Source of the DNA: a virus
IMG/VR virus record: IMGVR_UViG_3300043468_000519
Span: 1 to 29,832 of that record
Direction: 5' to 3' (one strand)
Length of the DNA stretch: 29,832 nucleotides
The translations under genes and the position numbers were made by a program. Within the stretch, counting starts at the first letter, position 1, and each line of letters begins with the position of its first letter. Below, piece after piece: positions 1 through 28,592 of this stretch. The notes beneath the pieces are model-generated. The model was not told where the DNA came from. It did not search any database and worked only from the letters and a program-made list of their open reading frames with translations.

Positions 1-89
1 TCAAGTTTCCACATTGCGCCTTGCCATCTATCCGCGTTCAATGCTTGAATTGCTTCGTCTTTGTCGTCGTATTCTATTGTTACTTTCAT
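1..89 (-). CDS. Partial copy of the 75-aa unknown gene (N-terminal 29 codons)
   Basis: This is the start of the gene that is complete at 29481-29708, cut by the contig edge. It begins at ATG 87-89 and reads MKVTIEYDDKDEAIQ onward. It is a duplicate only because the contig ends overlap, not a second gene in the genome. Its start follows the 31-bp leader (87-117), and the stop of the upstream 50-aa gene lies one base before it. Confidence 0.9.
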   Translation of the reverse strand, partial: MKVTIEYDDKDEAIQALNADRWQGAMWKL

Positions 90-117
90 CTTATTCTGAT
101 TTATTTAGTTCGTGTTT
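87..117 (-). repeat. 31-bp start-associated leader, copy A
   Basis: It is identical to 827-857 and 29706-29736. Read on the minus strand it ends in AAATCAGAATAAGATG, the ATG being the start codon of the gene to its left. It carries TAA in two frames (in AAATAA and in GAATAAG) and reads through in the third, so it can close an upstream gene and open the next within about 30 bases. Copies A and E are the exact edges of the block that is absent at the right end of the contig. Confidence 0.9.
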
Positions 118-243
118 AATTAGTTCTTGTTTTATCATCTTATTAATCTTTTTTAATTCATTGTTCATTAGCCATCCTGGTAATGATACAAGCACTACAA
201 TAAATGTTATTGTTGCTAGTAATCCTGTTAAATATAATATCAT
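91..243 (-). CDS. Small membrane protein, 50 aa, in variable block
   Basis: The reading frame runs from ATG 241-243 to TAA 91-93. It starts MILYLTGLLATITFIVVLVS, one hydrophobic segment of about 20 residues, and continues into a Lys/Glu-rich, probably cytoplasmic helix that ends in NKSE. I do not recognise a family. Its start follows a leader copy (244-260), and its last codons and stop lie inside the next leader (87-117), leaving one base before the following ATG. That tight fit supports it as a real gene despite its size. The gene is missing from the short state of the genome. Confidence 0.65.
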   Translation of the reverse strand: MILYLTGLLATITFIVVLVSLPGWLMNNELKKINKMIKQELIKHELNKSE

Positions 244-260
244 CTTATTTTGATTTAAAG
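241..260 (-). repeat. Start-associated leader, copy B
   Basis: On the minus strand this reads CCTTTAAATCAAAATAAG followed by the ATG of the 50-aa gene. It differs from the consensus core AAATCAGAATAAG by one base (A for G) and has a shorter 5' part than copies A and E. Confidence 0.75.
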
Positions 261-261
261 G

Positions 262-447
262 TTAATCTTCAATGTTTTCTTTTTCAAACTCGGGGTCATA
301 ATATCCTTGCTTATACCCTCTATCCCAAGCATTATCCATCTGCTCCTTCTCAAATTTTTTGGCTTGGGTAATAATATGTGGTGGTATAAATAGTCCACCT
401 TCTGCCCATTTATTAAACTCAGATTCTAACCATTCTACTGCTGTCAT
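262..447 (-). CDS. Unknown 61-aa acidic protein in variable block
   Basis: I place the start at ATG 445-447, directly after a leader copy. The longer frame up to 519 would need a TTG start and would translate the leader itself (as LNQNK before the Met). The product starts MTAVEWLESEFNKWAEGG and ends in EFEKENIED. It is acidic, probably helical and soluble, with no signal peptide or membrane segment. No family was recognised. Length and position suggest an accessory early gene. The upstream gene stops one base before this start (TAA 449-451), so the two may be translationally coupled. Confidence 0.7.
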   Translation of the reverse strand: MTAVEWLESEFNKWAEGGLFIPPHIITQAKKFEKEQMDNAWDRGYKQGYYDPEFEKENIED

Positions 448-467
448 CTTATTCTGATTTAAAATTC
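445..467 (-). repeat. Start-associated leader, copy C
   Basis: The minus strand reads TTTTAAATCAGAATAAG before the ATG at 445-447, with a perfect core. The TAA inside the core is the stop codon of the upstream 52-aa gene. Confidence 0.8.
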
Positions 468-607
468 CAAAAATTTCTACCCCAAGCATTTTTACTTGTG
501 GAAATTCTAATCTCCACAAAAGGTAAACTAATTACAATTTGCCCATCATAAGATATTCCAATAGTAATTTGCCATTTCCAATAAATTGATAGTCTATATT
601 CTCCCAT
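449..607 (-). CDS. Unknown 52-aa protein in variable block
   Basis: The frame runs from ATG 605-607 to TAA 449-451. The product begins MGEYRLSIYWKWQITIGIS, is rich in Trp, Ile and Ser, has alternating hydrophobic residues suggesting beta strands, and ends in FKSE inside leader copy C. It ends one base before the next start, the same arrangement as the 50-aa gene at 91-243. Its own start lacks a clear leader copy, being preceded only by an A/T-rich run. No family was recognised. Support is mainly positional: it fills the only gap in an otherwise gapless row of genes. Confidence 0.5.
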   Translation of the reverse strand: MGEYRLSIYWKWQITIGISYDGQIVISLPFVEIRISTSKNAWGRNFWNFKSE

Positions 608-613
608 GTTATT

Positions 614-829
614 TTAATTAATTAAATTTTGAATGATTAAAAATAAAATCACTGAATATACTAATGAGGTTATAATAGTACCAATTAAAACTCCTTTGTT
701 AAATTGTGTCATATTATTCTGATTTATTTGTTTTTGTTTGAATCTTTCATACCAACTCTTCCAATCTTCCTTAGTCATTGAATCCAAAGCCTCATCAAAT
801 TCTTTGTTTAATTTTTCCCAATTAGCCAT
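614..829 (-). CDS. 71-aa protein with internal leader and possible second start at 712
   Basis: The frame begins at ATG 827-829 after leader copy E. The first 39 residues (MANWEKLNKEFDEALDSM onward) are charged and helical. Then a leader copy is read in frame as INQNN, followed by Met 40 (codon 710-712). From there a separate-looking 32-residue peptide (MTQFNKGVLIGTIITSLVYS onward) forms one membrane segment. Either this is one protein with a C-terminal anchor, or two genes were joined when the upstream one lost its stop, with the leader still able to start the 32-aa peptide at 614-712. No family was recognised. Confidence 0.65.
   Translation of the reverse strand: MANWEKLNKEFDEALDSMTKEDWKSWYERFKQKQINQNNMTQFNKGVLIGTIITSLVYSVILFLIIQNLIN
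710..730 (-). repeat. Start-associated leader, copy D, inside a reading frame
   Basis: The minus strand reads ACAAATAAATCAGAATAAT before ATG 710-712. The core has one change (T for the final G). Unlike the other copies it lies within an open frame and is translated as QINQNN, because the upstream sequence enters in the one frame the leader does not close. Confidence 0.65.
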
Positions 830-857
830 CTTATTCTGATTTATTTAGTTCGTGTTT
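827..857 (-). repeat. 31-bp start-associated leader, copy E
   Basis: It is identical over 31 bases to 87-117 and 29706-29736, and the flanking bases differ (826 C, 86 T). It gives the start codon of the gene at 614-829, and its AAATAA is the stop of the gene at 841-1098. Recombination between this copy and copy A, with loss of 740 bp, gives exactly the sequence seen at 29620-29832. Confidence 0.9.
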
Positions 858-1098
858 TACTTGCTTCGCGGTATCCATCGCTAAAGCCTTTGACGTAATG
901 AAGGTCAATCTCTTTCTTAATGCGGCTCAAATAAAGCGTTGCATCCATCAACTCCTCAAGTAAATGGTTTATCCATTGGTCAAGAGTCAGGTCTTCTCGG
1001 TCTAATGTAGTTCCGTATTTTCGTATGCCAGTAGTAGAGCGTTCTGCATACTTCGCCATCACGGATAAAACGATTTGGTCTTCTACTTCTTGTTTCAT
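841..1098 (-). CDS. MazG-like / dATP-dGTP pyrophosphohydrolase-like small protein
   Basis: This is an 85-aa, mostly helical protein. The stretch RKYG around residue 26 followed by HLLEELMDATLYLSRI (residues 45-60) resembles the small phage proteins of the all-alpha NTP pyrophosphatase (MazG-like) group, where an ExxxD pattern binds magnesium. Known members hydrolyse nucleoside triphosphates or act on nucleotide pools; activity here is inferred, and the protein is shorter than full MazG enzymes. The start overlaps the stop of the exonuclease gene by four bases (ATGA), and the stop lies in leader copy E. A truncated copy of its 3' end is repeated at 29720-29832. Confidence 0.5.
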   Translation of the reverse strand: MKQEVEDQIVLSVMAKYAERSTTGIRKYGTTLDREDLTLDQWINHLLEELMDATLYLSRIKKEIDLHYVKGFSDGYREASKTRTK

Positions 1099-1775
1099 AG
1101 GAAATTGTAAAGGGTGTTAAAATACTCGCGGCATAGTTCTACGCGCTCTTTTATTTGTTCTATTACTTGTTCGTCTTTTTCTACTTTAAAGACCTTTACA
1201 CGGCGTCCTAGCGGTATATGGTCGAAAACGTGGCGTTTTAGTATTTCGTCGCGCAAGTCTAGATCTTCTTCTAGTAGGTGGGCGTTCCAATGCGCTCGGC
1301 GTATTTCGTCTTCTACCATTTCGATAGGTGTATTAACTAGGCAGTAAACTAGTAGCGCTTCGGTCTTACCCGTCAATTCCATGTATCCTTGCAACTGGTA
1401 GTAGTAATCTTTAGTCGGTATTTCGGTAGCAAAAAACGGGAATGTAGTAGCGTCCCAAGAACTTTTTACGTCTAGTAGCACGTCGTCCGTGTTTACGTCG
1501 GGCGTACCAGTTAAGAACTCGTTTTCAAAGTGCCTTTCGTTCTTGTAAATAAAACTTAATTCTAGCGCTTCTGCGGCCATTTCGATAGCTTGGCCTTCTA
1601 CTGCATTACCTTTGTCCGTGTAACGGCTGTAAAACGGCTTAATTACGCCGTATTTCGCGCGCAATACTTCTTCTTCTATGTATGTCTTTGCCGTTTGGCT
1701 TAAAAACTCCCCCTTTGTGCGTGGGTTAGTCATTATTTTACCTATGGCAGAACATCGAATTTTCCAAGCGTTCAT
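1095..1775 (-). CDS. YqaJ/lambda-exo-type recombination exonuclease
   Basis: The 226-aa product has the PD-(D/E)XK nuclease pattern of the YqaJ/lambda Exo family: Glu 60 in GNAVEGQAIE, GTPD at 90-93, LDVKSSW at 101-107 giving the D-x-K catalytic pair, and the conserved Gln of YYYQLQGYM at 124-132. Enzymes of this type chew one strand from double-stranded ends to give 3' tails for annealing. The gene overlaps the annealing-protein gene upstream by four bases (ATGA) and the MazG-like gene downstream by four, so the exonuclease and its partner are made from one message. Length is typical. Confidence 0.88.
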   Translation of the reverse strand: MNAWKIRCSAIGKIMTNPRTKGEFLSQTAKTYIEEEVLRAKYGVIKPFYSRYTDKGNAVEGQAIEMAAEALELSFIYKNERHFENEFLTGTPDVNTDDVLLDVKSSWDATTFPFFATEIPTKDYYYQLQGYMELTGKTEALLVYCLVNTPIEMVEDEIRRAHWNAHLLEEDLDLRDEILKRHVFDHIPLGRRVKVFKVEKDEQVIEQIKERVELCREYFNTLYNFL

Positions 1776-2299
1776 AGCGCGTTAAGTATGTCGGTTTGTC
1801 CTTCGGTTAACTCAAAGCTAGCTTCTAACTTTTCGCGGGTATAGTCGCCTTTTTGAATGGCTACTAGTGCGGCTTGAAAACGTTTAGCGTCTATTTGCTT
1901 TTTCTTTGGTTCGTCTTTTACTTGTTCGCCGCTTGCGTCCGTGTCTTTATCCGTTACAAGACCTAAAGAACTAGCCAAAGCGTAACGACGGAAATACGTA
2001 ACACCACTACCGAAGCTTTGATAGTCATTCATTCCCTTTAAGGTTACGCTAGGAATAGCTACGGACGTTTCCATGTGTTCGCCAGTCTCTACGTGGAAAA
2101 TCATTGTAGCTAGGTAGTTTTCGCCGTCTTTGGTGTGTAGGTTTTGGGTAAAGCCTAGCCCGTGTTTTGCTAGTAGCGGGTTAATTACTTTAAAAATTGC
2201 GGGTAAGTCGCTATAAGAATAGCCGAACCCTTGCGTTCCTTTGTGGATTACTGGTACTTCTTGCTGAAAAGCCGCAAGCGCTTTTAATAAATTTTTCAT
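1772..2299 (-). CDS. ERF-family single-strand DNA annealing protein
   Basis: The 175-aa protein matches the ERF recombinase family (type member P22 Erf). The signature is the run SFGSGVTYFRRYALASSLGL at residues 95-114, followed by an acidic DKDTDAS segment. An N-terminal block (FGYSYSDLPAIFKVINPLL, 25-43) is also typical. Such proteins anneal complementary single strands and work with an exonuclease, here the overlapping downstream gene. Together they could circularise terminally redundant genomes and recombine short repeats, including the 31-bp leaders about 1 kb away. A C-terminal tail of about 50 residues is less conserved. The start is ATG 2297-2299, with a -7-like box 30 bases upstream. 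Confidence 0.88.
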   Translation of the reverse strand: MKNLLKALAAFQQEVPVIHKGTQGFGYSYSDLPAIFKVINPLLAKHGLGFTQNLHTKDGENYLATMIFHVETGEHMETSVAIPSVTLKGMNDYQSFGSGVTYFRRYALASSLGLVTDKDTDASGEQVKDEPKKKQIDAKRFQAALVAIQKGDYTREKLEASFELTEGQTDILNAL

Positions 2300-2329
2300 A
2301 ATCGGTTAATTATTAGTGTTATTTAGATA

Positions 2330-2337
2330 CAAATATA
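2330..2337 (-). promoter_or_regulatory. Candidate -7 box before the ERF/exonuclease genes
   Basis: The minus strand reads TATATTTG, a full match to TAnnTTTG, about 30 bases before the ERF start and just after the NinG stop. No TTTG was found at the expected 19-21 base distance, so it is a half-supported internal promoter. Confidence 0.4.
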
Positions 2338-2341
2338 TAGT

Positions 2342-2860
2342 TTATTTCAATTCGTTGTACTTTTTTTTATATTTTTTTATCAATTCTTTAAGTTCGTCTA
2401 CGTCCCAACGTTTCTCTAGGTGCGCGCGGCCTTGTAATTCTATTAATTTGTCGGCGCCTATGCGTTGTTCTATGCCTATTTGGTAGTTAAGAAGATTGCC
2501 AGACAAAAAAGTGTTGCAATGTTCGCATTGTAGGTGTACGTTGTCTTCGTCAAACCTTACGTTTGAGTGGCCACCTTGACTGAAATAGTGGCCAGCGTTC
2601 TTTTTCTTTGGCGGTTGGTTGCATGAAATGCACGCTTTGCCTTCGTCGCGTTTACGTATGTAGGCGTTAAATACTTTTTGTGCGTCTTTAAGCCAGTCGC
2701 TAGTAGTTTTTAGTTCGGTTGTCCATTTCTTTTTCGTGTTTTTCCAAGCGGCGGTTTTAGCTTCTTCTACAAACGCGTTAAGACATTCGCGTTTTAGGCA
2801 GTATTTCATATTGAATTTTACTGGTGTAAATTTTTCTCGGCAATTTTTACAACGTGGCAT
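2342..2860 (-). CDS. ninG: NinG/Rap-family recombination endonuclease
   Basis: The 172-aa protein matches lambda NinG (Rap), a structure-specific endonuclease acting on recombination intermediates such as Holliday junctions. Visible parts are an N-terminal zinc-finger-like set (CKNC at 4-7, with Cys 21 and Cys 26), then ACISC at 76-80, AGHYFSQGGHSNVRFDEDN at 89-107, the CEHCN pair at 112-116, and LSGN at 119-122, all in the family order. The C-terminus is Lys-rich and coiled. The start overlaps the methyltransferase stop by 14 bases. Its place beside ERF and the exonuclease makes a compact recombination set. Confidence 0.85.
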   Translation of the reverse strand: MPRCKNCREKFTPVKFNMKYCLKRECLNAFVEEAKTAAWKNTKKKWTTELKTTSDWLKDAQKVFNAYIRKRDEGKACISCNQPPKKKNAGHYFSQGGHSNVRFDEDNVHLQCEHCNTFLSGNLLNYQIGIEQRIGADKLIELQGRAHLEKRWDVDELKELIKKYKKKYNELK

Positions 2861-3500
2861 CTTTACAACTATTTAAAATTTCATAAACTAAAGCGCTAGG
2901 AATTACCGAACGTTCATAACTACCAGAACGTCCCTGCGTTCCTGTTTTAGATCCTCTAGGCGCTCTTTGGTGGTGGCAATGTATGTTTCCGTTAAAACAT
3001 TCGTGTTTTGGTAGCCAGCCGTTAGGGTTAAAAACGCTATATAAATGGTTTGTAAATATGTCCGTAGGCTTTGCGCGGTCGTCGCCGTAACGGCAATACC
3101 AAATAGTAGCCCTATCTATTCCCTTTACGAATGGCATTTTACGCATCATTCCCCGCGGGTTTTCAATAAAAAATTTTAAATTCGGGTTTAAATTTAAGTA
3201 GTAATTTATTAGTTCTATTTGGTGGAAATTTACGGCGTCGCACTTTTTTGCATAGTCGCTTACTGGTAGCGTTCCGTTTCTATGGTGGCTTATTGCCGCT
3301 ATTGAATAAGTTGTGCAATCTGGACTAGTCCAAATAACGTCGGGAATAAATGGCACGTGTTCTGGCGTTAATTTCTCTATGTCTATTACAAGGTCTATGT
3401 TTTCGTAGGGCGTCCAGTCAACAGAAAAAACCTTAAAGCCTAATTTTTCGGCTACTTTTCCTATTGATCTGCTACCAGCGTGTAGTTCTAGTATATTCAT
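2847..3500 (-). CDS. Phage DNA cytosine-5 methyltransferase-like protein
   Basis: The 217-aa protein has an AdoMet-binding start (LELHAGSRSIGKVAEKLGF, 4-22, then SVDW), an SPDC motif at 59-62 in the place of the catalytic Pro-Cys of C5 methyltransferases, and ENPRG at 113-117 in the place of the ENV motif. It is much shorter than host enzymes (usually above 300 aa), and the target-recognition region is small, as in other phage orphan enzymes. No restriction endonuclease gene is next to it, so protection from host restriction or genome marking is a likelier role than a restriction-modification pair. It overlaps ninG by 14 bases. Confidence 0.7.
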   Translation of the reverse strand: MNILELHAGSRSIGKVAEKLGFKVFSVDWTPYENIDLVIDIEKLTPEHVPFIPDVIWTSPDCTTYSIAAISHHRNGTLPVSDYAKKCDAVNFHQIELINYYLNLNPNLKFFIENPRGMMRKMPFVKGIDRATIWYCRYGDDRAKPTDIFTNHLYSVFNPNGWLPKHECFNGNIHCHHQRAPRGSKTGTQGRSGSYERSVIPSALVYEILNSCKDATL

Positions 3501-3503
3501 AGC

Positions 3504-3794
3504 TTAAAATTTACTTGTTTGTAGTTCCATTTCTAATTCTTTAACCCGTCTAGCTAGTTCTATGTTTCGACTTGCTAGTATCGTGTTTTCACGGCTCATT
3601 GCCACCGCGTGTTCGTGTAGCCTAGTAAAAAACGAAATAGCCTCTAGTAGTTCTTCTTCGCTTTGTTCTGCGCCTTGTATGTAGTCCTTTGCTTCTGGGC
3701 GTGTTTTTAGTATTTGTTCGCGTGCGGTCTTTATTCTTTGTCTAATTGAGTATAAATTGACCCGTGTTTTTATTATTTCTAGTCCTAGTTCCAT
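3504..3794 (-). CDS. Unknown 96-aa coiled-coil protein
   Basis: The protein is almost wholly charged helix. Heptad-like spacing of Leu and Ile continues to the C-terminal RRVKELEMELQTSKF. There is no signal or membrane segment and no family was recognised. It lies between the helicase-like ATPase and the methyltransferase with gaps of two and three bases, which ties it to the replication operon. A small accessory or adaptor role is possible, but nothing in the sequence fixes it. Confidence 0.65.
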   Translation of the reverse strand: MELGLEIIKTRVNLYSIRQRIKTAREQILKTRPEAKDYIQGAEQSEEELLEAISFFTRLHEHAVAMSRENTILASRNIELARRVKELEMELQTSKF

Positions 3795-3796
3795 GT

Positions 3797-4738
3797 TTAA
3801 AAAGGTAAATTGTTTGACATTCTACGTAATTTTTCGCTAGTTGACATTAACTCGCCGTCTGGTATTTGCTTTTGAACCTCTCGCGGTCTGTAATTAGCTA
3901 GAGGGTCTACGCCGTTAATAATAAAACCTAGCCCGTTGTTAAATTCGCACTTTACGGGTTGCTCAATTTCGGTGTGTTTACCGCCAGTTTCTTGGTCTTT
4001 AATCTTTTCTACGCCTATAAGCGTTTTGTATTTTAGTTCTGGGTGTTTGATTAGTCGGTGTATTACTAGCATATCGTCGCATCTGTTTAAGAACGCCTTA
4101 CCGCCCTCTATGTGGTCTTTCAATGGTGGCTTTAAATGGCCTTTTAGTTCTCCGTCTGCATAAATGTTACCACTTCGGCCGCTTTCTGTATTTGGGTGGG
4201 TGTTTATGTAAATAGTTATTCCAGTTTGGTTGCAAAATTGGCGGGCTTTATTCATAAATTCGTAATTCCCTTCATATCCCATTTGTCTATCTAGGCCCGT
4301 GAATGGATCAATTAACCCAACTTTAGCCCCGCTTTCCTTAAAAAGGTCTAGCACTTCTTCTGGTTTGTACAAATTCGAGTTGTCTACAAAAGTAAAGTAT
4401 TGTTCTAGGTACGCTAGGTCGCCCGCTATTTGACTATGGGTTAGTTGGCTGAAATGTTTGCCTCTATACATTTGGATAAGGTCGCGCATTATTTGCCCCT
4501 TTTGGTTTTCGCCTGACCAAATACAGAAAGTTAGTTCGTGTTTTAGTGCAAGAGTTAGGAAGTACCAGTTAATCCAATACGTCTTTCCGACGTTGTCATG
4601 TCCAAGAATTATAGTAAGTTGTTTAGGTTTAAAACGCAAGTATTCATCTAGGTAGCAATCTAGCCCAAGACCTTGTTTTATTTTGCCGTCCCTTACGTCT
4701 AGTAAGTATTGTAACGCGTCGCCTTGTTTTAGTAGCAT
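3797..4738 (-). CDS. RecA/DnaB-like replication ATPase (helicase candidate)
   Basis: The 313-aa protein has a Walker A motif GHDNVGKT at 46-53, a likely Walker B strand KVGLIDPF with Asp 144, and a later INTHPN segment that fits a sensor motif of RecA-fold ATPases. This is the layout of the DnaB C-terminal domain and of related phage helicases, but the DnaB N-terminal primase-binding domain is missing. The C-terminus ends in SNNLPF, slightly like the acidic/aromatic tips of SSB-binding proteins. It follows the replication protein gene by two bases. A replicative helicase is the best reading; a recombination ATPase is the alternative. Confidence 0.7.
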   Translation of the reverse strand: MLLKQGDALQYLLDVRDGKIKQGLGLDCYLDEYLRFKPKQLTIILGHDNVGKTYWINWYFLTLALKHELTFCIWSGENQKGQIMRDLIQMYRGKHFSQLTHSQIAGDLAYLEQYFTFVDNSNLYKPEEVLDLFKESGAKVGLIDPFTGLDRQMGYEGNYEFMNKARQFCNQTGITIYINTHPNTESGRSGNIYADGELKGHLKPPLKDHIEGGKAFLNRCDDMLVIHRLIKHPELKYKTLIGVEKIKDQETGGKHTEIEQPVKCEFNNGLGFIINGVDPLANYRPREVQKQIPDGELMSTSEKLRRMSNNLPF

Positions 4739-4740
4739 GG

Positions 4741-5412
4741 TTAGTTTTTTAGGTGTTCTAGTATTGCGTCGCTTTCTGTTTTAATAGTTAAGCCGCTGTA
4801 CTTGTCTATTGTTTCGGCTCTACTAAAAAATTCAGGGGTGCAATACTGGTAGTTCGTGTCTTTATGGTATTTACTAGAGGCGGCGTTGGTTATTGCGTCA
4901 AAAATACTTTCTTTTGTGTAACCTTCTTTTAATCTAGCTTTATAAGAGCGTTTTGTCTTTTCGTTAATTACCTCAAACTTACGACCGAAAGTTGTATTAA
5001 TGAAGCCTAGCAACGCTAGGTAGTCAATATTATTATTTATATCATTTACATTAACATTTACATTATCATTAACAGCTATTTTTGCTATGCCATTTATGCG
5101 TTTGCTATCTTTTGCCATAGGTTCGCATTCAGTCGCATCGTTTGGTATTTCGTTCCAACGTTTGCTAGCACCAGCCTTACCCGCTTCGCTACGTTTTATT
5201 TTAACTTCTTCAAATAGTTTTAAGTCGCGCTTAAGCTGTTGTTTAATTGGCTCAAAAGCTATTTCTATTATTAGGTCTTCAGCCGTTGGGTTTTCGTCGT
5301 TGACATAGGCGTAAATATGTTTGATTAGTTTACCCGCTATGTCGTCGGGTAGTTTGTTAAATAAGTCCTTTTGATCAACGTAAAGGATAAACGATTTTTT
5401 GTCTTTTGCCAT
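4741..5412 (-). CDS. Phage replication protein, DUF6291-like N-terminus with conserved phage C-terminal domain
   Basis: The 223-aa protein has two parts. Residues 1-90 (KSFILYVDQKDLFNKLPDD, later GKAGASKRW) look like the DUF6291 type. Residues 128-210 (LLGFINTTFGRKFEVINEK, YTKESIFDAITNA, TPEFFSRAE) match the conserved phage C-terminal domain (Phg_2220_C) of replication initiator or helicase-loader-like proteins. They are joined by a linker with alternating Asn-Val (NDNVNVNVND), coded by a hexamer repeat. The next gene downstream is the helicase-like ATPase, which fits a loader role. The start at 5410-5412 lies just after an attenuator-like RNA structure. Confidence 0.72.
   Translation of the reverse strand: MAKDKKSFILYVDQKDLFNKLPDDIAGKLIKHIYAYVNDENPTAEDLIIEIAFEPIKQQLKRDLKLFEEVKIKRSEAGKAGASKRWNEIPNDATECEPMAKDSKRINGIAKIAVNDNVNVNVNDINNNIDYLALLGFINTTFGRKFEVINEKTKRSYKARLKEGYTKESIFDAITNAASSKYHKDTNYQYCTPEFFSRAETIDKYSGLTIKTESDAILEHLKN
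5041..5070. repeat. Five tandem hexamers (NNCATT) inside the replication gene
   Basis: The plus strand reads ATCATT, TACATT, AACATT, TACATT, ATCATT, then AACAGC. It codes the Asn-Val linker on the minus strand. The block is followed on its left by an A/T-only stretch (about 5027-5040). Placement between the two domains of an initiator-like gene recalls lambda O, whose gene holds the origin iterons. Whether these hexamers bind anything is not known; they may only be a low-complexity linker. Confidence 0.6.
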
Positions 5413-5416
5413 TTTG

Positions 5417-5424
5417 CAAATTTA
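5417..5424 (-). promoter_or_regulatory. TAAATTTG box four bases before the replication gene start
   Basis: The minus strand reads TAAATTTG, CAAA, ATG. The box matches TAnnTTTG and sits between the terminator-like hairpin and the start codon. A transcript from it would begin at or next to the ATG, so it would be leaderless. The gene at 28296-28544 has the same box at the same distance. No -33 TTTG was checked as convincing. Confidence 0.3.
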
Positions 5425-5430
5425 GGTAAT

Positions 5431-5480
5431 AAAAAACCCCCAAACTTCATTGCGGCTGGACGTGCAAATCGGTTTGAGGG
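5431..5480 (-). terminator. Intrinsic terminator hairpin before the replication gene
   Basis: The stem CCCTCAAAC / GTTTGGGGG (minus strand) encloses 26 bases and is followed by TTTTTT and ATTA. Its large loop contains one arm of the second stem, so its formation could be set by that other pairing. It would separate the DnaA-like gene and the upstream small genes from the replication/recombination genes. Confidence 0.6.
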
Positions 5481-5514
5481 TAAATAATTCCTTTTGAGTT
5501 TATGGTGTCCAGCC
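5431..5514 (-). ncRNA. Structured leader RNA with two interleaved stems, attenuator-like
   Basis: On the minus-strand transcript the order is: GGCTGGAC (5514-5507), a 26-nt spacer, CCCTCAAAC (5480-5472), a 10-nt spacer, GTCCAGCC (5461-5454), an 8-nt spacer, GTTTGGGGG (5445-5437), then six T (5436-5431). The first and third pieces pair perfectly over 8 bp; the second and fourth pair over 9 bp with one G-U. The stems interlock, so both together make an H-type pseudoknot. The second stem plus the T run is an intrinsic terminator 18 bases before the replication gene. The G-U is a C-A mismatch on the other strand, which favours a minus-strand RNA. Confidence 0.7.
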
Positions 5515-5524
5515 AACTCGTCTA

Positions 5525-5532
5525 CAAATATA
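5525..5532 (-). promoter_or_regulatory. Candidate -7 box for the structured leader
   Basis: The minus strand reads TATATTTG, matching TAnnTTTG, just after the stop of the DnaA-like gene. A transcript from here would start near 5520, immediately before the first arm of the interleaved structure. I found no TTTG at 19-21 bases upstream. Confidence 0.4.
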
Positions 5533-5536
5533 ACGT

Positions 5537-5962
5537 TTATTCTTCTAAAAGGTTGCTTTCAAGTTGCAATTTTTCGTAAACACCTAGCTTAACACGGCGT
5601 CGAATACGTTTAAAGTCGCGTATTGTTCGTGCGTCTAATATGTCCGTCTTTAAGTCGCGTACTTTACGGGTGTCTTCTGGGTATAAAATAACGGAGCCTT
5701 GTAGTTGCTCTTTTAGTTGTATTGTTTCGTGTTTATATTCTTCGTCTTGGTAGCTTGTTAAGTCTCTGTGCGTTCTTATTCCGTGAATAATTGTAGCGTG
5801 GTGCTTACCGAAAATTTCGCCTATTTGCGTAAGGCTAAAGCCGCTAGTTCGTAGTTCGTTGTAAAGAAACGCACGCTTGTAAATTAAGCCACGATCGCGG
5901 CATTTGTTTGTAAGGTCGTAGCGTTCTATTAGTTCGTGTATTATTGCTATTCTGTTTTTCAT
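5537..5962 (-). CDS. DnaA domain IV-like DNA-binding protein
   Basis: The 141-aa protein has, at residues 41-66, GFSLTQIGEIFGKHHATIIH and following, a close look-alike of the DnaA domain IV DNA-binding helix-turn-helix, in which a basic-His-x-Thr signature contacts DnaA boxes. The ATPase domains of DnaA are absent. The second half is charged and helical (RTIRDFKRIRRRVKL). It may bind the phage origin or its own leader region, or interfere with host initiation. It lies upstream of the structured leader and the replication genes and overlaps the coiled-coil gene upstream by four bases. Confidence 0.65.
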   Translation of the reverse strand: MKNRIAIIHELIERYDLTNKCRDRGLIYKRAFLYNELRTSGFSLTQIGEIFGKHHATIIHGIRTHRDLTSYQDEEYKHETIQLKEQLQGSVILYPEDTRKVRDLKTDILDARTIRDFKRIRRRVKLGVYEKLQLESNLLEE

Positions 5963-6240
5963 TTGGTTTCGTTTTTAAATAGTTGTTTTTTAAGCCTAAT
6001 GTTTTCTTCTACGACTTTGTTACATTCCTTACGGCTTTTATCTAGTTGTTTTTGTAGGTTTTCTATTCTATTATTTGCTTGTTCTAGCGCGTCTTTATAT
6101 GTCTTTTTTACTTGGTTTTTTTCTAGTTCTTCTTTAAGTTCTTCTATATACGCGTTTGCTTGTCCTAGCTTAACACGAATTATTTTAATTACTTCGCGGT
6201 CTGGTAACTTCATTAAACCGCTCCATTCAGTATCTTTCAT
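5959..6240 (-). CDS. Unknown 93-aa coiled-coil protein
   Basis: Residues 25-90 form one long charged helix (EELKEELEKNQVKKTYKDAL and onward) with heptad spacing, a likely dimeric coiled coil. The first 24 residues (MKDTEWSGLMKLPDREVIKI) may be a short head. No family was recognised. Both ends overlap neighbours by four bases (ATGA), indicating translational coupling within the early operon. Confidence 0.65.
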   Translation of the reverse strand: MKDTEWSGLMKLPDREVIKIIRVKLGQANAYIEELKEELEKNQVKKTYKDALEQANNRIENLQKQLDKSRKECNKVVEENIRLKKQLFKNETK

Positions 6241-6383
6241 ATTTCCGTTATTTTAAACTTACCTAAATTGTAGTTATTCGTAAATAGTAGTTCCGACTTC
6301 GCGGCGTAGGCCATTGTTTTAGAGTAGAAACGCCAGCTTTGCACCGCTTTAGAACCGACGTAATAGGTTAGTAGGTATTTCAT
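6237..6383 (-). CDS. Unknown 48-aa protein
   Basis: The frame runs from ATG 6381-6383 to TGA 6237-6239. The product begins MKYLLTYYVGSKAVQSWRFY and is basic, without a membrane segment. Both ends overlap the neighbouring genes by four bases (ATGA), which is the main support for so short a frame. No family was recognised. Confidence 0.6.
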   Translation of the reverse strand: MKYLLTYYVGSKAVQSWRFYSKTMAYAAKSELLFTNNYNLGKFKITEI

Positions 6384-6496
6384 ATTTCTTGCATTTTGAT
6401 TTCACAAATTCTTTTATAAAGACCTTCGTTAAAGTTCGTCCAAAAGCGGTTCCTTTGGTAGTGGCTAAATGCCCCAGTCTGGACTCCACCCGTCAT
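6380..6496 (-). CDS. Unknown 38-aa protein, start uncertain
   Basis: The frame is open back to 6601, but a start there would overlap the next gene by 137 bases. I prefer the Met at 6494-6496, giving MTGGVQTGAFSHYQRNRF and onward, with a 32-base overlap. The stop overlaps the following gene by four bases, which fits the coupling seen through this operon. The product is basic and aromatic-rich. It could be unreal, since the support is positional only. Confidence 0.4.
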   Translation of the reverse strand: MTGGVQTGAFSHYQRNRFWTNFNEGLYKRICEIKMQEI

Positions 6497-6761
6497 CGAT
6501 GAGTTCGTCGTAATAGTTTGCGAGCATATCTTCGAAATAGCGTCGCCCGTGTTCTTGAAGTTCGGAAATAATTTCGTTTTCGGTTTGTGTTGTGTTTTCA
6601 TAAATTCGGTTTATTTTGTACATTAATTCGTCGTTATTGACGTCTATTTTAACTTCTACTTCGGCTAGAGGTTCGTCTGTTAAACTGCAATAAATAATAG
6701 CCTCTAGTTCGCCGTAAGAATCAAATTCGGTTAGCGCGTCAATCCAAATACTAGTTTTCAT
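6465..6761 (-). CDS. Unknown 98-aa acidic protein
   Basis: The product begins MKTSIWIDALTEFDSYGELE, is strongly acidic throughout and ends in DDGWSPDWGI. Predicted structure from the pattern is a few beta strands (EAIIYCSLT, EVEVKIDV) followed by helices. Strong acidity and small size are common in phage early proteins that bind host factors, but nothing here identifies a target. It overlaps the membrane-protein gene upstream by 11 bases. Confidence 0.65.
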   Translation of the reverse strand: MKTSIWIDALTEFDSYGELEAIIYCSLTDEPLAEVEVKIDVNNDELMYKINRIYENTTQTENEIISELQEHGRRYFEDMLANYYDELIDDGWSPDWGI

Positions 6762-6984
6762 ATTTCGATTTATAAACGTGTTGTGAATACTTTAGGTAAC
6801 TTTTAGGTAGTTCGTAGCTTTTTGCGGGTGTCTTTTCCGTCTTTTTGACGTATAGCTGTGGCATGGTGTTAGTTGAAGCCAACCAAAACAAGAACACACA
6901 ACCCGCAATAAATGTAACTACACCGCCTATAATTTGGCGTTCGTCTTGGTTTAAGTCAGAGAATAAGAATTTAAGCGTTTTCAT
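6751..6984 (-). CDS. Small single-pass membrane protein, 77 aa
   Basis: After an N-terminal segment (MKTLKFLFSDLNQDERQ) there is one hydrophobic stretch, IIGGVVTFIAGCVFLFWLAS (18-37), and then a Lys/Tyr-rich tail. This is an inner-membrane anchor with a basic tail of about 40 residues. No family was recognised. It overlaps the 57-aa gene upstream by 14 bases. Confidence 0.6.
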   Translation of the reverse strand: MKTLKFLFSDLNQDERQIIGGVVTFIAGCVFLFWLASTNTMPQLYVKKTEKTPAKSYELPKSYLKYSQHVYKSKYEN

Positions 6985-7144
6985 TTTGAATAGATTTTAA
7001 GATTTCGTAAGTTGTTGACCATCTAGCGCGAGCCACTTTGAAGGCTTCGCTATCTTCGCCAAAGACTAGTTTAGCGTTCGTTAATGCGCTGAAAAGTTCT
7101 TCTTCTTGTAGCATTAACATTGTAATAATTTGTTGTGTTGTCAT
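6971..7144 (-). CDS. Unknown 57-aa protein
   Basis: The frame runs from ATG 7142-7144 to TAA 6971-6973 and fills the gap between its neighbours. The product begins MTTQQIITMLMLQEEELFSA, appears helical and amphipathic, and has no signal peptide. It overlaps the next gene by 14 bases and is four bases from the gene upstream. Codon use is like that of the neighbours. No family was recognised. Confidence 0.6.
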   Translation of the reverse strand: MTTQQIITMLMLQEEELFSALTNAKLVFGEDSEAFKVARARWSTTYEILKSIQNENA

Positions 7145-7148
7145 TGTA

Positions 7149-7325
7149 TTACTTTTTTAAATAGTTATTAATCTTAATAATCATTTTTTCATAAGCAGTT
7201 AGTGTGTCAAGATGGCTAAAAGTGCCAAACATAACTTGACCATTCAAATATGCAACAGCTGTTGTCGCTCCGCCTTCTTGCATTGTTTCTGTAATTTCGA
7301 AACCTTTGTAATTCATTGTTATCAT
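7149..7325 (-). CDS. Unknown 58-aa protein, first gene of the early unit
   Basis: I place the start at ATG 7323-7325 (MITMNYKGFEITETMQEGG); a second Met at 7314-7316 is also possible. The open frame extends to 7364, but that needs a TTG start lying on the promoter -7 box, upstream of the likely transcript start. The product has short beta strands (TTAVAYLNGQVMFGTF) and a basic helical end. It is the first gene after the best promoter of the window, so it is probably the earliest protein made. No family was recognised. Confidence 0.65.
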   Translation of the reverse strand: MITMNYKGFEITETMQEGGATTAVAYLNGQVMFGTFSHLDTLTAYEKMIIKINNYLKK

Positions 7326-7361
7326 GTCGTTTATTTTTTGTGTTTGTGAATTAATTATATG

Positions 7362-7392
7362 CAAATATATACACTAATTCGTTATTAACAAA
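7362..7392 (-). promoter_or_regulatory. Bacteroidetes-type promoter of the early/replication unit
   Basis: On the minus strand TTTG (7392-7389) is followed by a 19-base spacer and then TATATTTG (7369-7362). This matches the -33 TTTG and -7 TAnnTTTG consensus with the expected 19-21 base spacing. The transcript would start near 7357 and give a leader of about 30 bases before ATG 7325. It reads into the early operon and is the only promoter here with both elements. Confidence 0.78.
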
Positions 7393-7485
7393 AAAAAGTT
7401 GCATTTTTTTAACATTATTTTCAAGATGCTAGTATTTACAAGGCTTACAGACGCAAAATTTTTTCTAATTTTTTTTCTAGAAAAC

Positions 7486-7509
7486 AAAAAAGCCACCCCG
7501 AAAGGTGGC
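7486..7509 (-). terminator. Intrinsic terminator of the late unit
   Basis: The minus strand gives GCCACC, loop TTTCGG, GGTGGC, then TTTTTTG. It lies about 26 bases after the stop of the metallophosphoesterase gene and before the early promoter, so it separates the two leftward transcription units. Confidence 0.85.
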
Positions 7510-7535
7510 CTTAACCTATTATGAAACGTGTAAAT

Positions 7536-8600
7536 TTACGAAAAAAAGTATTCGTTTATGCTTTTGCGGTGTTCGTCGTAGTTAAAATGTACGAAGCCCG
7601 ACCTACCTAGTTGAAAGTTTGTGGCTACCCAGTTGCTAGACGGGCTAAATGCTGGGTAATTATAATACTTAAACGCGTCGCTACTTGCGCTATCGAACAA
7701 GTAAAGGTGGCTATCGCCTTTTTCAAACGTTATTTCGTAGCCTTTGTTTAATAGTTGCTTCGTGTTTAGGTAGCCCATTATTTTGTTTATCTGCGCAGGA
7801 TCTATTTTCGGTTTAAAACCATGCTTTAAATTATGGGTGTCTTTGCCATGCGTAGTAACGAAGCAATAATTACCTATTACTTGGTAGTCTATAAACGCCG
7901 TTTGGTTGGTTACGTGTACGTTGTTTAGTTCGCGTTCTATGTAGTGTTTGAAAGCTTGGTTAACGAAGTAGGAAAAGTCGCCGCTATGGTTGTCGTTACA
8001 AATGTTTCGTATTTCAATAGTCTTATAATAAGGCGCAAGGGCTTGAACTAACCTAACTTTAAACATAAAACCAATGTCAAACGCTTGTTGGTTGCTCATG
8101 TTTTGCGGTAACGTGTGTCCACCTCTAGTAGTTTGGCCGTTAAACCCGTCTAGAAAGTCGCCTAAATCTAGTATATAAAGCGTGTCGCTGTTTTGTTTTT
8201 CTAGCGTGTAGGTTACCATTTGTTCTAAACGTTCGAATAGTATTGTTTCTGTCCATTCTACGCCGTACATATTACGCCCTTTGTCGCTTGCGTCCATTCC
8301 TATATGCACGTCGGTAAAAACTAGCTTATCAAATAGTCCGTTAAAGCTTCGTTTTTTTCTAGGTTCTATTTCTAGCTTTGGGGCGTTTTCAATTAGGGCC
8401 TTGAAGTCGATATTTTTAAAGTCCAAGTCGTTACCAAAAGACGGGTTCTTAAAAAAAAGACTGGCATCATTTGTTTTGAGCCAGCCGTGCTTTACGTCTT
8501 TTTCGTCTAGTCCTAATTCGTTAGACTTGTTTTTTATTGCGCGGTATTGCTGAATTATTTCTAATTCATCCGCCTTTAATCTTATGCGTGGTATTTTCAT
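7536..8600 (-). CDS. Calcineurin-like metallophosphoesterase
   Basis: The 354-aa protein carries the metal-binding motifs of the calcineurin-like/Mre11 group in order: TDVH at 96-99 (DxH), LGDFLDG at 146-152 (GDxxD), NDNH at 202-205 (GNHD-like), and THG at 250-252. Known members hydrolyse phosphodiester or phosphomonoester bonds; the substrate here is unknown. It closes the late operon, overlapping the spanin-like gene by four bases, so it is made late. Processing of DNA ends at packaging, or removal of a nucleotide defence signal, are possible roles, but neither is shown by the sequence. The first 90 residues are a helical extension before the catalytic domain. Confidence 0.78.
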   Translation of the reverse strand: MKIPRIRLKADELEIIQQYRAIKNKSNELGLDEKDVKHGWLKTNDASLFFKNPSFGNDLDFKNIDFKALIENAPKLEIEPRKKRSFNGLFDKLVFTDVHIGMDASDKGRNMYGVEWTETILFERLEQMVTYTLEKQNSDTLYILDLGDFLDGFNGQTTRGGHTLPQNMSNQQAFDIGFMFKVRLVQALAPYYKTIEIRNICNDNHSGDFSYFVNQAFKHYIERELNNVHVTNQTAFIDYQVIGNYCFVTTHGKDTHNLKHGFKPKIDPAQINKIMGYLNTKQLLNKGYEITFEKGDSHLYLFDSASSDAFKYYNYPAFSPSSNWVATNFQLGRSGFVHFNYDEHRKSINEYFFS

Positions 8601-15019: not shown

Positions 15020-15559
15020 ATGGTAACTATTTTAAACAAAGAAATTCCTAACGAATTAAATGAGTTGACTATTCAGCAGTTCGAAGACATTACAGAAATT
15101 CACGCTAACCCAAAACTAGACCACGTAGAAAAACATTTAGAGGTATTTAAGTACATGGGCGTTAGCGAAGAAATAGAAGAAGTAGACTTCGAAACTTTTA
15201 AAGAATACATAAAGGAATTTAACACGGCAAAGGCGCCCGAAGGTATCTTGTTAAAGCGTTTTGAAAACGACGGCTATACTTATGAGGCCTATCAATACGA
15301 ATGGAAATTAAGCGCCAAAGAAACGAAGCTTATCGAAAAGATTTTAAACAACAAACACAAAGGCTACATTTCCGAAGTGCTAGCGGTATTGTTTAAGCGT
15401 ACAGACCTAACGAAAAACGAACACTACACCGACGCGCATATCAAACACAAAGCAAAAATCATTCGTGAATTACCCGCCGAGGTTGCCGTTCCTTATTTGG
15501 TAGCCGTTGCCGATACAATTAACAAACAAGTTCAGACTTTGAATGAAACTACCGAATAG
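15020..15559 (+). CDS. Plus-strand protein, tail assembly chaperone-like, copy 1
   Basis: This 179-aa, helical, acidic protein starts VTILNKEIPNELNELTIQQF. It is alignable with the next gene through most of its length: PNELNELTIQQFEDI against PNSWHEVKTYQFKEI, then a GYTYEAYQ/GETYYLQP piece, and LAVLFKRTD against ASVFWRRID. The fold pattern and position between head and tail genes suggest a tail assembly chaperone, but I do not recognise a named family with certainty. It is transcribed against all neighbours and overlaps the next gene by 17 bases in the +1 frame. No obvious slippery site was seen in the overlap. Confidence 0.6.
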   Translation: MVTILNKEIPNELNELTIQQFEDITEIHANPKLDHVEKHLEVFKYMGVSEEIEEVDFETFKEYIKEFNTAKAPEGILLKRFENDGYTYEAYQYEWKLSAKETKLIEKILNNKHKGYISEVLAVLFKRTDLTKNEHYTDAHIKHKAKIIRELPAEVAVPYLVAVADTINKQVQTLNETTE

Positions 15560-16325
15560 TTGGCACGAAGTTAAGACTTACCAGTTTAAGGAAATACGCG
15601 CACTAAAAGACGCGGGCGGGTTCTTTAACATTCAGCTAGAAACGTTGGCTATTTTAGCGGACGTAAGCACGGACGAACTAGAAGACCTAACACTAGAAGA
15701 AATAGGCACCTTGTTTAAGTCTGTTAAATGGGTGTTACATGAGCCTAAAAAGGGGCTTTCTAACGAACTTTTAATAGATGGGGAAACTTACTACTTACAA
15801 CCATTTAAGAAACTAACGCTAGACGAATTTATAGACCTAGAACATTTCTTACAGAATGACTATTTAATACATATTTCGCATATAGCGTCCGTGTTTTGGA
15901 GACGTATTGACAAGGACAAGTGGCAAAATATTAGTTTTGAACCATACGTATTTAGTCCGTTTGATCGTTCCGAACTTTTCGACGACGTAGAAATAACAAA
16001 AATTTACGGAATAGTTCCCGAATACTTGAAATATCGGGAAAATTTCATGCAGAAATACAACGGCTTGTTCAATACAGACGACACAAACGACGACGAAGAA
16101 ATAACCCCTAACGACTTCGACAATATAGCCGAATACAAAGACCACTTAAAAAGAAAAGAACAAGATCAAAAGGCTAAAAAGTGGGGCTACGAAAGTTTAA
16201 TATTTGACCTTTGCGAAGGCGACATAACAAAAATAAAGGCAGTCGGAGAACTGCCCTTAATACTTGTTTTTAATATGTTAGCAATGCGTAAGGAAATGGG
16301 CTATTTAGAAGCCAGTAAACTCTAA
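15543..16325 (+). CDS. Plus-strand protein, tail assembly chaperone-like, copy 2
   Basis: The 260-aa protein is a longer relative of the gene before it. It shares the N-terminal PNSWHEVKTYQFKEI and the LLIDGETYYLQPFKKLTLDEF and IASVFWRRID pieces. It adds an acidic Asp/Asn/Glu stretch (TDDTNDDEEITPNDFDNI) and a C-terminal helical region ending LAMRKEMGYLEASKL. It may form a complex with its partner or replace a G/GT-type chaperone pair by gene duplication. Its 3' end overlaps the minus-strand gene at 16305-16736 tail to tail by 21 bases, with no terminator between. Confidence 0.6.
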   Translation: MKLPNSWHEVKTYQFKEIRALKDAGGFFNIQLETLAILADVSTDELEDLTLEEIGTLFKSVKWVLHEPKKGLSNELLIDGETYYLQPFKKLTLDEFIDLEHFLQNDYLIHISHIASVFWRRIDKDKWQNISFEPYVFSPFDRSELFDDVEITKIYGIVPEYLKYRENFMQKYNGLFNTDDTNDDEEITPNDFDNIAEYKDHLKRKEQDQKAKKWGYESLIFDLCEGDITKIKAVGELPLILVFNMLAMRKEMGYLEASKL

Positions 16326-26515: not shown

Positions 26516-26696
26516 TTTTTTTCGTGTTTTTAAAGTGGTCTAAAAATTGGTCTTCTGTTAGTTCTTCTACGCATAGCAAAAAGGGCATATCTGTAAGGTA
26601 AACGATTAAATGGTGTCCTTCATTACGTAGCTTTTCTTCTACTATGCTACCTATATGGCTCATTTTATGCCCCATGTCTATAAGGTAAAAGGCCAT
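26502..26696 (-). CDS. Unknown 64-aa protein
   Basis: The product begins MAFYLIDMGHKMSHIGSIVE, has a hydrophobic middle (LIVYLTDMPFLLCVEEL) and a basic tail (HFKNTKKNGKA). The hydrophobic stretch is interrupted by charged residues, so a membrane segment is doubtful. It follows the next gene with no gap and overlaps terS by 14 bases, so it belongs to the packaging operon. No family was recognised. Confidence 0.55.
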   Translation of the reverse strand: MAFYLIDMGHKMSHIGSIVEEKLRNEGHHLIVYLTDMPFLLCVEELTEDQFLDHFKNTKKNGKA

Positions 26697-27176
26697 TTAC
26701 TTTTCGTTTTTTATCTGTTCGAGTTTTCGTTGCGCCCATTCTATGCCTTCGTCGCCACCCCATGCCAGCCACATTAAACGCCCGCACCCGTCTCCTAGTT
26801 CCTTTTGTGAATTTTGGCGGTGTCGTTCAAAGCTTGCCATACGTGAAATTACGTCTTCCGATAAAGGTCGGCCTTCAGCGAGGTCGTTGGCGCGTCTTTT
26901 CCCTACGGGCGTGCCACACGAACCCCAGCCGTTTTGTTCGGCCCAACGTAAGGCTATTTTTGCATTTTCGCTTGCGGCTTTTGGATAGTCCGTGTAGGTC
27001 TTTTCAGCAAACGACTTCTTGTATAGGCTTAATGCCTCGCGGCTGTGCGTTTCCCATACTCTTTGGCACACGGCGAAACGTTGGCTTTCGTCTGGAAAGC
27101 TATTAACGCTTTCTTCGTCGGCCATGCAACGTTGTAAGAACTTGTCTTTACCTTCTCCCTTAATTGGTTGCGGCAT
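26697..27176 (-). CDS. Unknown conserved-looking 159-aa protein next to terminase
   Basis: The N-terminal piece (KGEGKDKFLQRCMADEESVN and SQRFAVCQRVWE) is of a type I associate with the start of some phage head proteins and prohead proteases. The second part has SENAKIALRWAEQNGWGSCG, RANDLAEG and IARM-like stretches, then GDGCGRLMWLAWGGDEGIEW, which looks like a compact conserved domain with invariant-looking Gly, Trp and Cys. The function is unknown to me. Position before terS suggests a packaging or virion role, perhaps carried into the particle. It overlaps the gene upstream by 17 bases. Confidence 0.55.
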   Translation of the reverse strand: MPQPIKGEGKDKFLQRCMADEESVNSFPDESQRFAVCQRVWETHSREALSLYKKSFAEKTYTDYPKAASENAKIALRWAEQNGWGSCGTPVGKRRANDLAEGRPLSEDVISRMASFERHRQNSQKELGDGCGRLMWLAWGGDEGIEWAQRKLEQIKNEK

Positions 27177-27426
27177 TTTTTCTACGTTTTCGTGTTTTCT
27201 TAACTACTGGCTTTGGTTCTTCTACTGCGTCCGCTTGCGCTACTTCGTGATCTATTCCCGTGTAGCTTATTGTTTGGCTTTCACGTTCAAAAAGGTAGCC
27301 TAGCCCCATAGTAGCGTAATAGCTAAACCTAGAAGGGTCTATTTTGTCTACTTCTATTTTGCGTTCGCCTAAAACGCTGTCGTAAGTTATTAGGGTTTTA
27401 CCCTTGTATTCGTCTTTAATTTTCAT
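27160..27426 (-). CDS. Unknown 88-aa protein with basic tail
   Basis: The product begins MKIKDEYKGKTLITYDSVLG, contains beta strands and aromatic residues (SRFSYYATMGLGYLFER), and ends in a very basic tail (PVVKKTRKRRKNAATN). The tail could bind DNA or RNA. It overlaps the downstream gene by 17 bases and the small membrane-protein gene upstream by 11. No family was recognised. Confidence 0.55.
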   Translation of the reverse strand: MKIKDEYKGKTLITYDSVLGERKIEVDKIDPSRFSYYATMGLGYLFERESQTISYTGIDHEVAQADAVEEPKPVVKKTRKRRKNAATN

Positions 27427-27583
27427 GTTCGTCTTTATTTAGTGCTTCAATAACTATTTCTAGGCCACCTATGGAAATAAGCACACCCATTAAAAACACG
27501 GCGTGTTTAAATTCGGCTAGGGAAACCAAAACCCCAACAGAGGTAATAATTAAGCCCGTTGCTATGTTATTTTTGTTTTTCAT
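27416..27583 (-). CDS. Small membrane protein, 55 aa
   Basis: The frame runs from ATG 27581-27583 to TAA 27416-27418. It has two hydrophobic segments (IATGLIITSVGVLVSLA, 7-23, and AVFLMGVLISIGGLEIVI, 28-45) joined by a short EFKH turn, so both ends would be on the same side of the membrane. It overlaps the sigma-like gene by 17 bases and the 88-aa gene by 11. Small hairpin membrane proteins like this may act as accessory lysis factors, but that is inference only. Confidence 0.6.
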   Translation of the reverse strand: MKNKNNIATGLIITSVGVLVSLAEFKHAVFLMGVLISIGGLEIVIEALNKDEHEN

Positions 27584-28148
27584 TTCTATAACTATATTCT
27601 ATTTCCTTTATTCTTTGTTTCAAGGATTTAATCATGTAGTAGGCAGAGGTACGCGGTATGTCGAAAAAGTCCGCCATTTGTCTAGAAGTTTGGCATTTGT
27701 GCTTAAAATAGGCTTCGGCTATTCGTTTTTCTACGGGGCTGGTTATTTCGTCCAAGTAAATAGATATGCAAGCCATACGTAAAGCTATTGTTTCTTCTAT
27801 GGCTATTTTGTGTTCTATTTCGGTGTCGTTTGGTTCGTCTTTTGGTACGTATTCGACACTATGCACTTCGTCTTGTTTGCGACTTACGGACGTAGGCCAC
27901 CAAATTTGCATTTTGATTGTGTTGAGTAGGTAGCTTTTTACTTGACTTTCGGTTGCTTCATGGTCTTCCATTGTAGCAACGTGCAAATAGGCGTTGTTTA
28001 TAATGGTGTCGGCCTTTACCATAATAAGGTCTAGCTTCTTACTTATTCGAAGACGCGTTAACATATACGTAGTATAAGCTTTTACTTCGTCGTAGTTCGC
28101 CGTTATGTAGGCATCAAGCGTTTTTTTGATACCAGACGAGGAACTCAT
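27567..28148 (-). CDS. Sigma-70-like transcription factor
   Basis: The 193-aa protein has the layout of small sigma factors. Residues 20-85 (ADTIINNAYLHVATMEDHEA, then VKSYLLNTIKMQIWW) resemble sigma region 2. After a charged linker, residues 130-185 (LDEITSPVEKRIAEAYFKHK, TSRQMADFFDIPRTSAYYMI) form a region 4-like helix-turn-helix. The length fits the ECF type, but region 2 is poorly conserved, so a relative or anti-sigma partner is possible. It lies in the first part of the late operon, where it could direct late transcription from promoters that differ from the host form. It overlaps neighbours on both sides (17 and 35 bases). Confidence 0.6.
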   Translation of the reverse strand: MSSSSGIKKTLDAYITANYDEVKAYTTYMLTRLRISKKLDLIMVKADTIINNAYLHVATMEDHEATESQVKSYLLNTIKMQIWWPTSVSRKQDEVHSVEYVPKDEPNDTEIEHKIAIEETIALRMACISIYLDEITSPVEKRIAEAYFKHKCQTSRQMADFFDIPRTSAYYMIKSLKQRIKEIEYSYRNEKQK

Positions 28149-28317
28149 TATAAAATTTTAATCGATCTGAAGCGGCGCACAAACAGCGGTTGTCATTTTC
28201 ACGCGTTACGGCGTTTTTAATCTTTTGCAGTTTCTTTAAGTGCAACTTGCTCAACCTTGTCGGGGTTAATTGCTCTAGTATTTGGTTGGTTTCTATTATT
28301 TGATTTTCTGTAAGCAT
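28114..28317 (-). CDS. Unknown 67-aa protein
   Basis: The product begins MLTENQIIETNQILEQLTPT, is helical with a basic middle (KLHLKKLQKIKNAVTREND), and has two close Cys residues (RCLCAA). It overlaps the sigma-like gene by 35 bases and the membrane-protein gene upstream by 22. Such long overlaps favour coupled expression; a partner of the sigma-like protein is conceivable but not shown. No family was recognised. Confidence 0.55.
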   Translation of the reverse strand: MLTENQIIETNQILEQLTPTRLSKLHLKKLQKIKNAVTRENDNRCLCAASDRLKFYNEFLVWYQKNA

Positions 28318-28544: not shown

Positions 28545-28548
28545 AGTT

Positions 28549-28556
28549 CAAATTTA
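28549..28556 (-). promoter_or_regulatory. Candidate promoter -7 box of the late unit
   Basis: The minus strand reads TAAATTTG, then AACT and ATG. The box matches TAnnTTTG but no -33 TTTG is at the right distance. It is the only candidate between the early terminator (28593-28614) and the first late gene. A start here would be at or near the ATG. Confidence 0.45.
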
Positions 28557-28592
28557 CTTGTTTTTATATTCGTGTTTATATAAGATATTAAC

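Follow-up and report, generated by a model that had tools for sequence, protein, structure and literature searches.

A repeated leader before start codons as a candidate exchange site for small-gene cassettes in probable Flavobacterium-type phages

T4-like phages carry promoter early stem-loops (PeSLs), which contain a promoter together with a stem-loop. In cluster K mycobacteriophages, the 13-bp SAS, one of a pair of elements known as SAS and ESAS, has a Shine-Dalgarno core and stands before the starts of a subset of genes (PMC3203893). Cyanophage S-PM2 can lose its "ORFanage," a large block holding 13% of its open reading frames (ORFs), a deletion that was attributed to mispackaging and is seen in mixed populations (PMC4503421). 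Rad52-like phage recombinases, including Erf of phage D3, outperform RecA on short homologies (PMC3945230). Here, we describe a locus at which a short repeat directly before ATG, the leader, bounds a block of tiny genes that is present in one state of a phage genome and missing in another.

The window, i.e., the whole stretch of DNA analyzed, is a 29,832-base IMG/VR virus record (IMGVR_UViG_3300043468_000519). All genes around the block are carried on the minus strand, and the features discussed below are as follows.

87-826, minus strand: 740-bp block, made up of tiny genes and a single copy of the leader, missing in the short state
87-117, minus strand: 31-bp leader repeat, downstream copy, before the 75-amino-acid (aa) gene (ATG at 89-87)
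91-243, minus strand: block gene, 50 aa, membrane type; 3' end inside the leader (HELNKSE stop)
241-257, minus strand: leader core variant TAAATCAAAATAAG-ATG
262-447, minus strand: block gene, 61 aa, a member of the TAVEWL family, which is the most frequent among cassette genes and has homologs in Flavobacterium elemo phages
445-461, minus strand: leader core TAAATCAGAATAAG-ATG
449-607, minus strand: block gene, 52 aa (MGEYRLS...); homolog in related locus L079
614-829, minus strand: block gene, 71 aa (MANWEKL...); may instead be a pair of genes, with 39 residues in the first part and a membrane-type peptide of 32 aa starting at 712
710-726, minus strand: leader core variant TAAATCAGAATAAT-ATG
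827-857, minus strand: upstream copy of the 31-bp leader repeat, preceding the first gene of the block
841-1098, minus strand: conserved gene directly upstream of the block, 85 aa; 3' end inside the leader in another frame (KTRTK stop); PHROG 17558, annotated unknown
1095-1775, minus strand: phage exonuclease, RecE-like; PHROG 5715, E value of 3.7e-60
1772-2299, minus strand: Erf single-strand annealing protein; PF04404, 6e-29
29481-29708, minus strand: conserved gene directly downstream of the block, encoding 75 aa (MKVTIEY...); in the long state, its 5' end is found at 1-89
29706-29736, minus strand: sole copy of the leader at the junction of the empty, or short, state; L083, L234, and L281 share this junction
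29706-29832, no strand: terminal 127 nt, equal to 827-953, likely a k = 127 node at which the assembly graph branches; the same signature marks an end of L261

The initial annotation had read the two ends of the window as the same locus with and without the block, and its coordinates were reproduced throughout. Positions 1-117 are 100% identical to 29620-29736, and 29737-29832 is an exact match to 858-953; with the repeat included, the latter match extends to 827-953 against 29706-29832 (127 nt, 100%). The 31-mer CATCTTATTCTGATTTATTTAGTTCGTGTTT is present at 87-117, 827-857, and 29706-29736, and because the bases just outside the copies differ (T at 86, C at 826, and T at 29705 on one side; A at 118, T at 858, and T at 29737 on the other), the repeat is exactly 31 bp long. 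A 31-nt exact match in 30 kb is far above chance expectation, and one repeat copy together with the block comes to the 740 bp claimed. As for the contents of the block, said to be four or five tiny genes without an enzyme motif, none reached a curated Pfam cutoff, and PHROGs returned only weak matches to unknown families. The gene at 614-829 holds a second, in-frame leader and start at 712. Elsewhere in this otherwise minus-strand genome, two plus-strand ORFs (179 and 260 aa) occupy 15020-16325.

A separate contig, L083 (IMGVR_UViG_3300042520_000318; 7,360 nt), which was retrieved by a search with the neighboring exonuclease gene, bears directly on the two-state reading. It is the reverse complement of window positions 26568-29832 joined to 954-5048, with zero mismatches. 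The empty site sits in the middle of L083, with 3 to 4 kb of flank on each side identical to the window, which means that the short junction did not arise as an artifact of a contig end. With the empty site inside L083 and both ends of the window joined in it, the short state is real and the genome is circular or circularly permuted, which upholds the annotation's further suggestion of a circular or terminally redundant genome. De Bruijn assemblies collapse identical sequence, and L083 therefore very probably comes from an assembly other than that of the window. It was also the sole contig matched when the window protein at 29077-29484 was used as bait. The population would accordingly be a mixture of genomes with and without the 740-bp block, and the assembly signature considered below suggests that both occur in one sample. 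A search for the block sequence in other IMG/VR contigs found none, and a 42-nt pattern across the empty junction also occurs in L234 and L281, which are more distant relatives; within this clade, the empty site is thus more common than the occupied one. The block may accordingly have been acquired recently, or it may be in the course of being lost.

On the coding strand, the 31-bp repeat reads AAACACGAACTAAATAAATCAGAATAAG, with the ATG of a small gene following at once. Five starts in or beside the block (six with the second contig end) are preceded by its core, TAAATCAGAATAAG-ATG, or by a close variant. Six of the seven near-matches to the core in the whole window lie in this array, all of them directly before ATG and on the same strand; the other match is weak. 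Relatives carry between 0 and 6 copies of the leader at the equivalent site downstream of the exonuclease gene, again on the same strand. Exact matching against IMG/VR recovered at least 119 stretches with this class-1 leader, on contigs of up to 373 kb, and in other phage contigs more than 100 unrelated families of small genes have the core before them. The 276 leader-led ORFs in the fetched loci represent 234 unique proteins (136 families, 106 singletons), and the median length is 65 aa in the exact-leader set. The class-1 consensus had no match in 50,697 phage records. Among the products, the commonest are small helical proteins of the TAVEWL...AKEMEKEQ...YYNETFKSE family, whose genes often stand in tandem; structure prediction for the TAVEWL protein gave helices only (pLDDT of 74), and the model's small size and uncertainty made it unsuitable for a fold search.

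The upstream half of the leader occurs in two main forms, AACGAAACCTT and AAACACGAACTAAA, of which the first is the end of the commonest cassette gene (TAVEWL...QYYNETFKSE). A protein-coding tail as the sole cause of the leader is nevertheless ruled out by the differing frames in which upstream genes read it: among 174 contexts, 107 end in FKSE-stop, 36 stop early, and 2 read through. Since the frames differ, protein conservation cannot explain the conservation of the DNA, and the leader is conserved as nucleotides. Stem-loop or RNA structure was also considered and rejected, as leaders fold no better than shuffled sequences (z-scores near 0).

We compared all loci for class-1 cassette indels with leaders at both edges and found 20 pairwise events in five lineages, with pairs nonindependent within a lineage; randomly shifted leader positions gave a mean of 0.27 and a maximum of 5. 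The lineages are window/L083 (740 bp), L093/L103, L008/L006, L065/L064, and L159/L158. Gain and loss of cassettes at leaders thus recurs in related phages, and the window is one instance of a general pattern. Some high-identity indels in relatives fall away from leaders, indicating that these phages change elsewhere too.

Screening de novo for 14-mers that recur in front of ATG returned the class-1 leader and a second leader, AAACAACAAGAACA, at 33 loci each, the class-1 count being inflated by loci fetched with that motif. The class-2 leader precedes ATG(A) and has its own cassette arrays in L079, L030, L045, L108, and more than 100 other IMG/VR stretches. Subtracting from L108 the 206 bp between two 19-nt copies of TAAACAACAAGAACAATGA gives L107 with 0 mismatches over 7,077 nt, and the cassette that L107 lacks is once more a TAVE-type gene. 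Class-2 leader-edged events numbered 26, a count not clearly above the shifted control, which had a mean of 4.6 and a maximum of 44. Homologs of the 32-aa part of the gene at 614-829 and of the MGEYRLS protein adjoin each other in L079, inside its class-2-leader array, which indicates that genes pass between leader classes. A third 14-mer repeated before starts, AAAATAATATAGTT, was seen at six loci (L041, L045, L049, L055, L057, and L060).

We assign a probability of roughly two in three to the reading that this is a circular phage in a mixed state, that the leader is both a translation start and a homology patch, and that cassettes are swapped between leaders, most likely via Erf and the exonuclease. 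As RNA, the leader would be an unstructured, strong Flavobacterium translation start with A residues at four initiation-favoring positions. Initiation in Flavobacterium johnsoniae, which does without Shine-Dalgarno sequences, is favored by A residues at -3, -6, -12, and -13 (PMC6847099); all four are present at 5 of 6 array starts versus 6 of 43 other genes, which suggests a role in translation. As DNA, the leader would offer short perfect homology between neighboring genes that are otherwise unrelated. Recombination of leader with leader by strand annealing could then remove whole cassettes or bring them in from another phage, and since the product of such an exchange is invariably an intact leader in front of an intact gene, no gene would be broken. 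The phage's own Erf protein and exonuclease, whose genes lie shortly upstream of the array, are the most likely candidates for this step, and the Erf gene lies directly upstream of the exonuclease gene in 77 of 80 related loci. Separately, a segment of the Erf gene (window positions 2144-2317) is 74.7% identical to Rhodobacteraceae phage LS06-2018-MD05, the only phage record matching window positions 1-8000.

The best-surviving alternative, which we nonetheless doubt, is that the repeats are merely good translation starts and that cassettes are lost by passive slippage or by host RecA acting at any direct repeat, with no evolved role in exchange. The leader does fit the F. johnsoniae start rules, and any perfect direct repeat of 19 to 31 bp can delete. 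Moreover, L191 and L261, otherwise identical over 2,530 nt, differ by the loss of 445 bp bounded by 102-bp repeats that lie in TAVEWL paralogs (L191:1295-1866 versus the end of L261), so that this pair recombined inside gene paralogs and not in the leader itself. However, 17 to 31 nt are conserved across unrelated genes and phages, well beyond the few positions that matter for initiation. Nor would good starts alone account for the separation of the two leader classes: among 159 loci fetched by terminase or exonuclease, class 1 is present in 37, class 2 in 66, and both in 0 (Fisher 6e-11, a value that ignores phylogeny).

An assembly artifact, either a false join over the 31-bp repeat or misextension at a contig end, is very improbable. 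One point in its favor is the 127-nt end match, a length typical of assemblers. This match, the last 127 nt of the window, starts at the exact base where the two states diverge. The window end looks like a contig finishing on a branch k-mer of a k = 127 assembly graph with both paths supported; if k was 127, all 128-mers over the short junction came from reads, and the join then did not come from a mistaken overlap of 31 bp. A simple k = 127 branch fails to account for the match at the left end, which is 117 nt long. A similar signature is found in another two-state array, where L261 starts with a 127-mer ending exactly at its point of divergence from L191. Against an artifact, this junction is also present in the separate contig L083, which shows zero mismatches over 7.36 kb, the 42-nt junction recurs in two other related contigs, and the exact L107/L108 pair repeats the pattern. 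Contig ends in relatives are denser 0.5 to 1 kb downstream of the exonuclease gene, at the array site (0.38 to 0.48 per kb), than upstream (~0.05 to 0.2 per kb); within 1.5 kb of the gene, 28 ends lie downstream versus 13 upstream (P = 0.03), as expected if the array is often polymorphic. Two other contigs, 3300042444_000023 (L007/L104) and 3300034051_000038 (L057/L137), are near complete and have ends that overlap at just 98% (531 bp) and 95% (299 bp), respectively; these are ends from different strain alleles, near window positions 27.8 to 28.5 kb.

We give just as little credence to a site-specific recombinase that recognizes the leader in the manner of an integron or an invertible array. 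Breakpoints do fall in the same short sequence, but the flanking perfect repeats differ in length (13 to 31 nt), two unrelated leader sequences behave alike, the class-1 leader lacks a structured site, and no recombinase gene was recognized near the array among the subset of ORFs searched. Least probable of all is a single linear genome with heterozygous terminal redundancy, one end with the block and the other without, in place of a mixture of genomes: headful-packaged phages can hold different alleles at their two ends, but L083 passes through the short state with 3 to 4 kb on each side, and such ends need a mixture as their origin anyway.

Homologs of the TAVEWL protein among the 50,697 phage records are confined to Flavobacterium elemo phages, with similar gene ends, and the phages described here are likely virulent and of the Flavobacterium type. 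Elemo-type phages that grow on Flavobacterium sp. BAL314 have TAVEWL genes, although the leader may be missing from them. Among 84,980 bacterial and archaeal genomes, neither the 23-mer of the class-1 leader nor the 21-mer of the class-2 leader had a match, and hence no prophage host can be named. The literature searched, outside which most subscription journals fall, contained no description of such leaders in Flavobacterium phages. If leaders and cassettes work as in our preferred reading, the repeat would act like a plug-in socket for small accessory genes, a testable mechanism by which tiny genes move in and out without breaking their neighbors, the translation-start signal doubling as a recombination patch. 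More tentatively, two standard leaders in many Flavobacterium-type phages of ~30 to 370 kb could define a shared pool of interchangeable small-gene cassettes, in which a matching leader would suffice for any cassette to be plugged in or out by short-homology annealing and expressed at once, and this pool may be enriched in counterdefense genes. The leader is also a search handle with which more than 100 families of small phage proteins can be collected by leader alone; anti-defense genes of archaeal viruses were collected via regulatory sequences (PMC11065993). With exact natural pairs that do and do not carry a cassette (L083/window, L107/L108, and L261/L191), gain and loss can be measured in environmental data.

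Compared with known systems, the leader is closest to SAS and PeSLs. Like SAS, it is a short conserved asymmetric repeat directly before start codons, nearly all in one orientation (six same-strand copies in the array, and likewise in relatives), with conservation above what translation alone seems to need. Unlike SAS, TAAATCAGAATAAG lacks AGGAG, the SAS core, and has no Shine-Dalgarno sequence, fitting the Shine-Dalgarno-free rules of Flavobacterium instead; cassettes are seen to be gained and lost at its repeats, and many unrelated phages share it. The array showed no inverted repeat of the kind found in ESAS (17-bp imperfect inverted repeats upstream), consistent with folding no better than that of shuffles. 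Like the T4 PeSLs (mentioned in PMC4503421), it is a regulatory element repeated between small accessory genes, whose shuffling it would mediate. It differs from them in being unstructured, with no stem-loop in the repeat (z-scores near 0), and in ending directly at ATG, so that it is unlikely to be a normal promoter of that gene. The leader thus resembles both SAS and PeSLs, and the features tested rule out membership of either. The S-PM2 deletion is alike in that a block of small orphan genes is lost and both states occur in mixed populations; there, however, loss of a large block was attributed to mispackaging, as opposed to recombination between leaders. Finally, the locus shares with the mosaics made by Rad52-like (Erf/Red-beta) recombinases an encoded Erf-family annealing protein, an adjacent partner exonuclease, and exchange at short homologies (PMC3945230), but the homology here is a standardized leader between cassettes rather than chance similarity between genomes.
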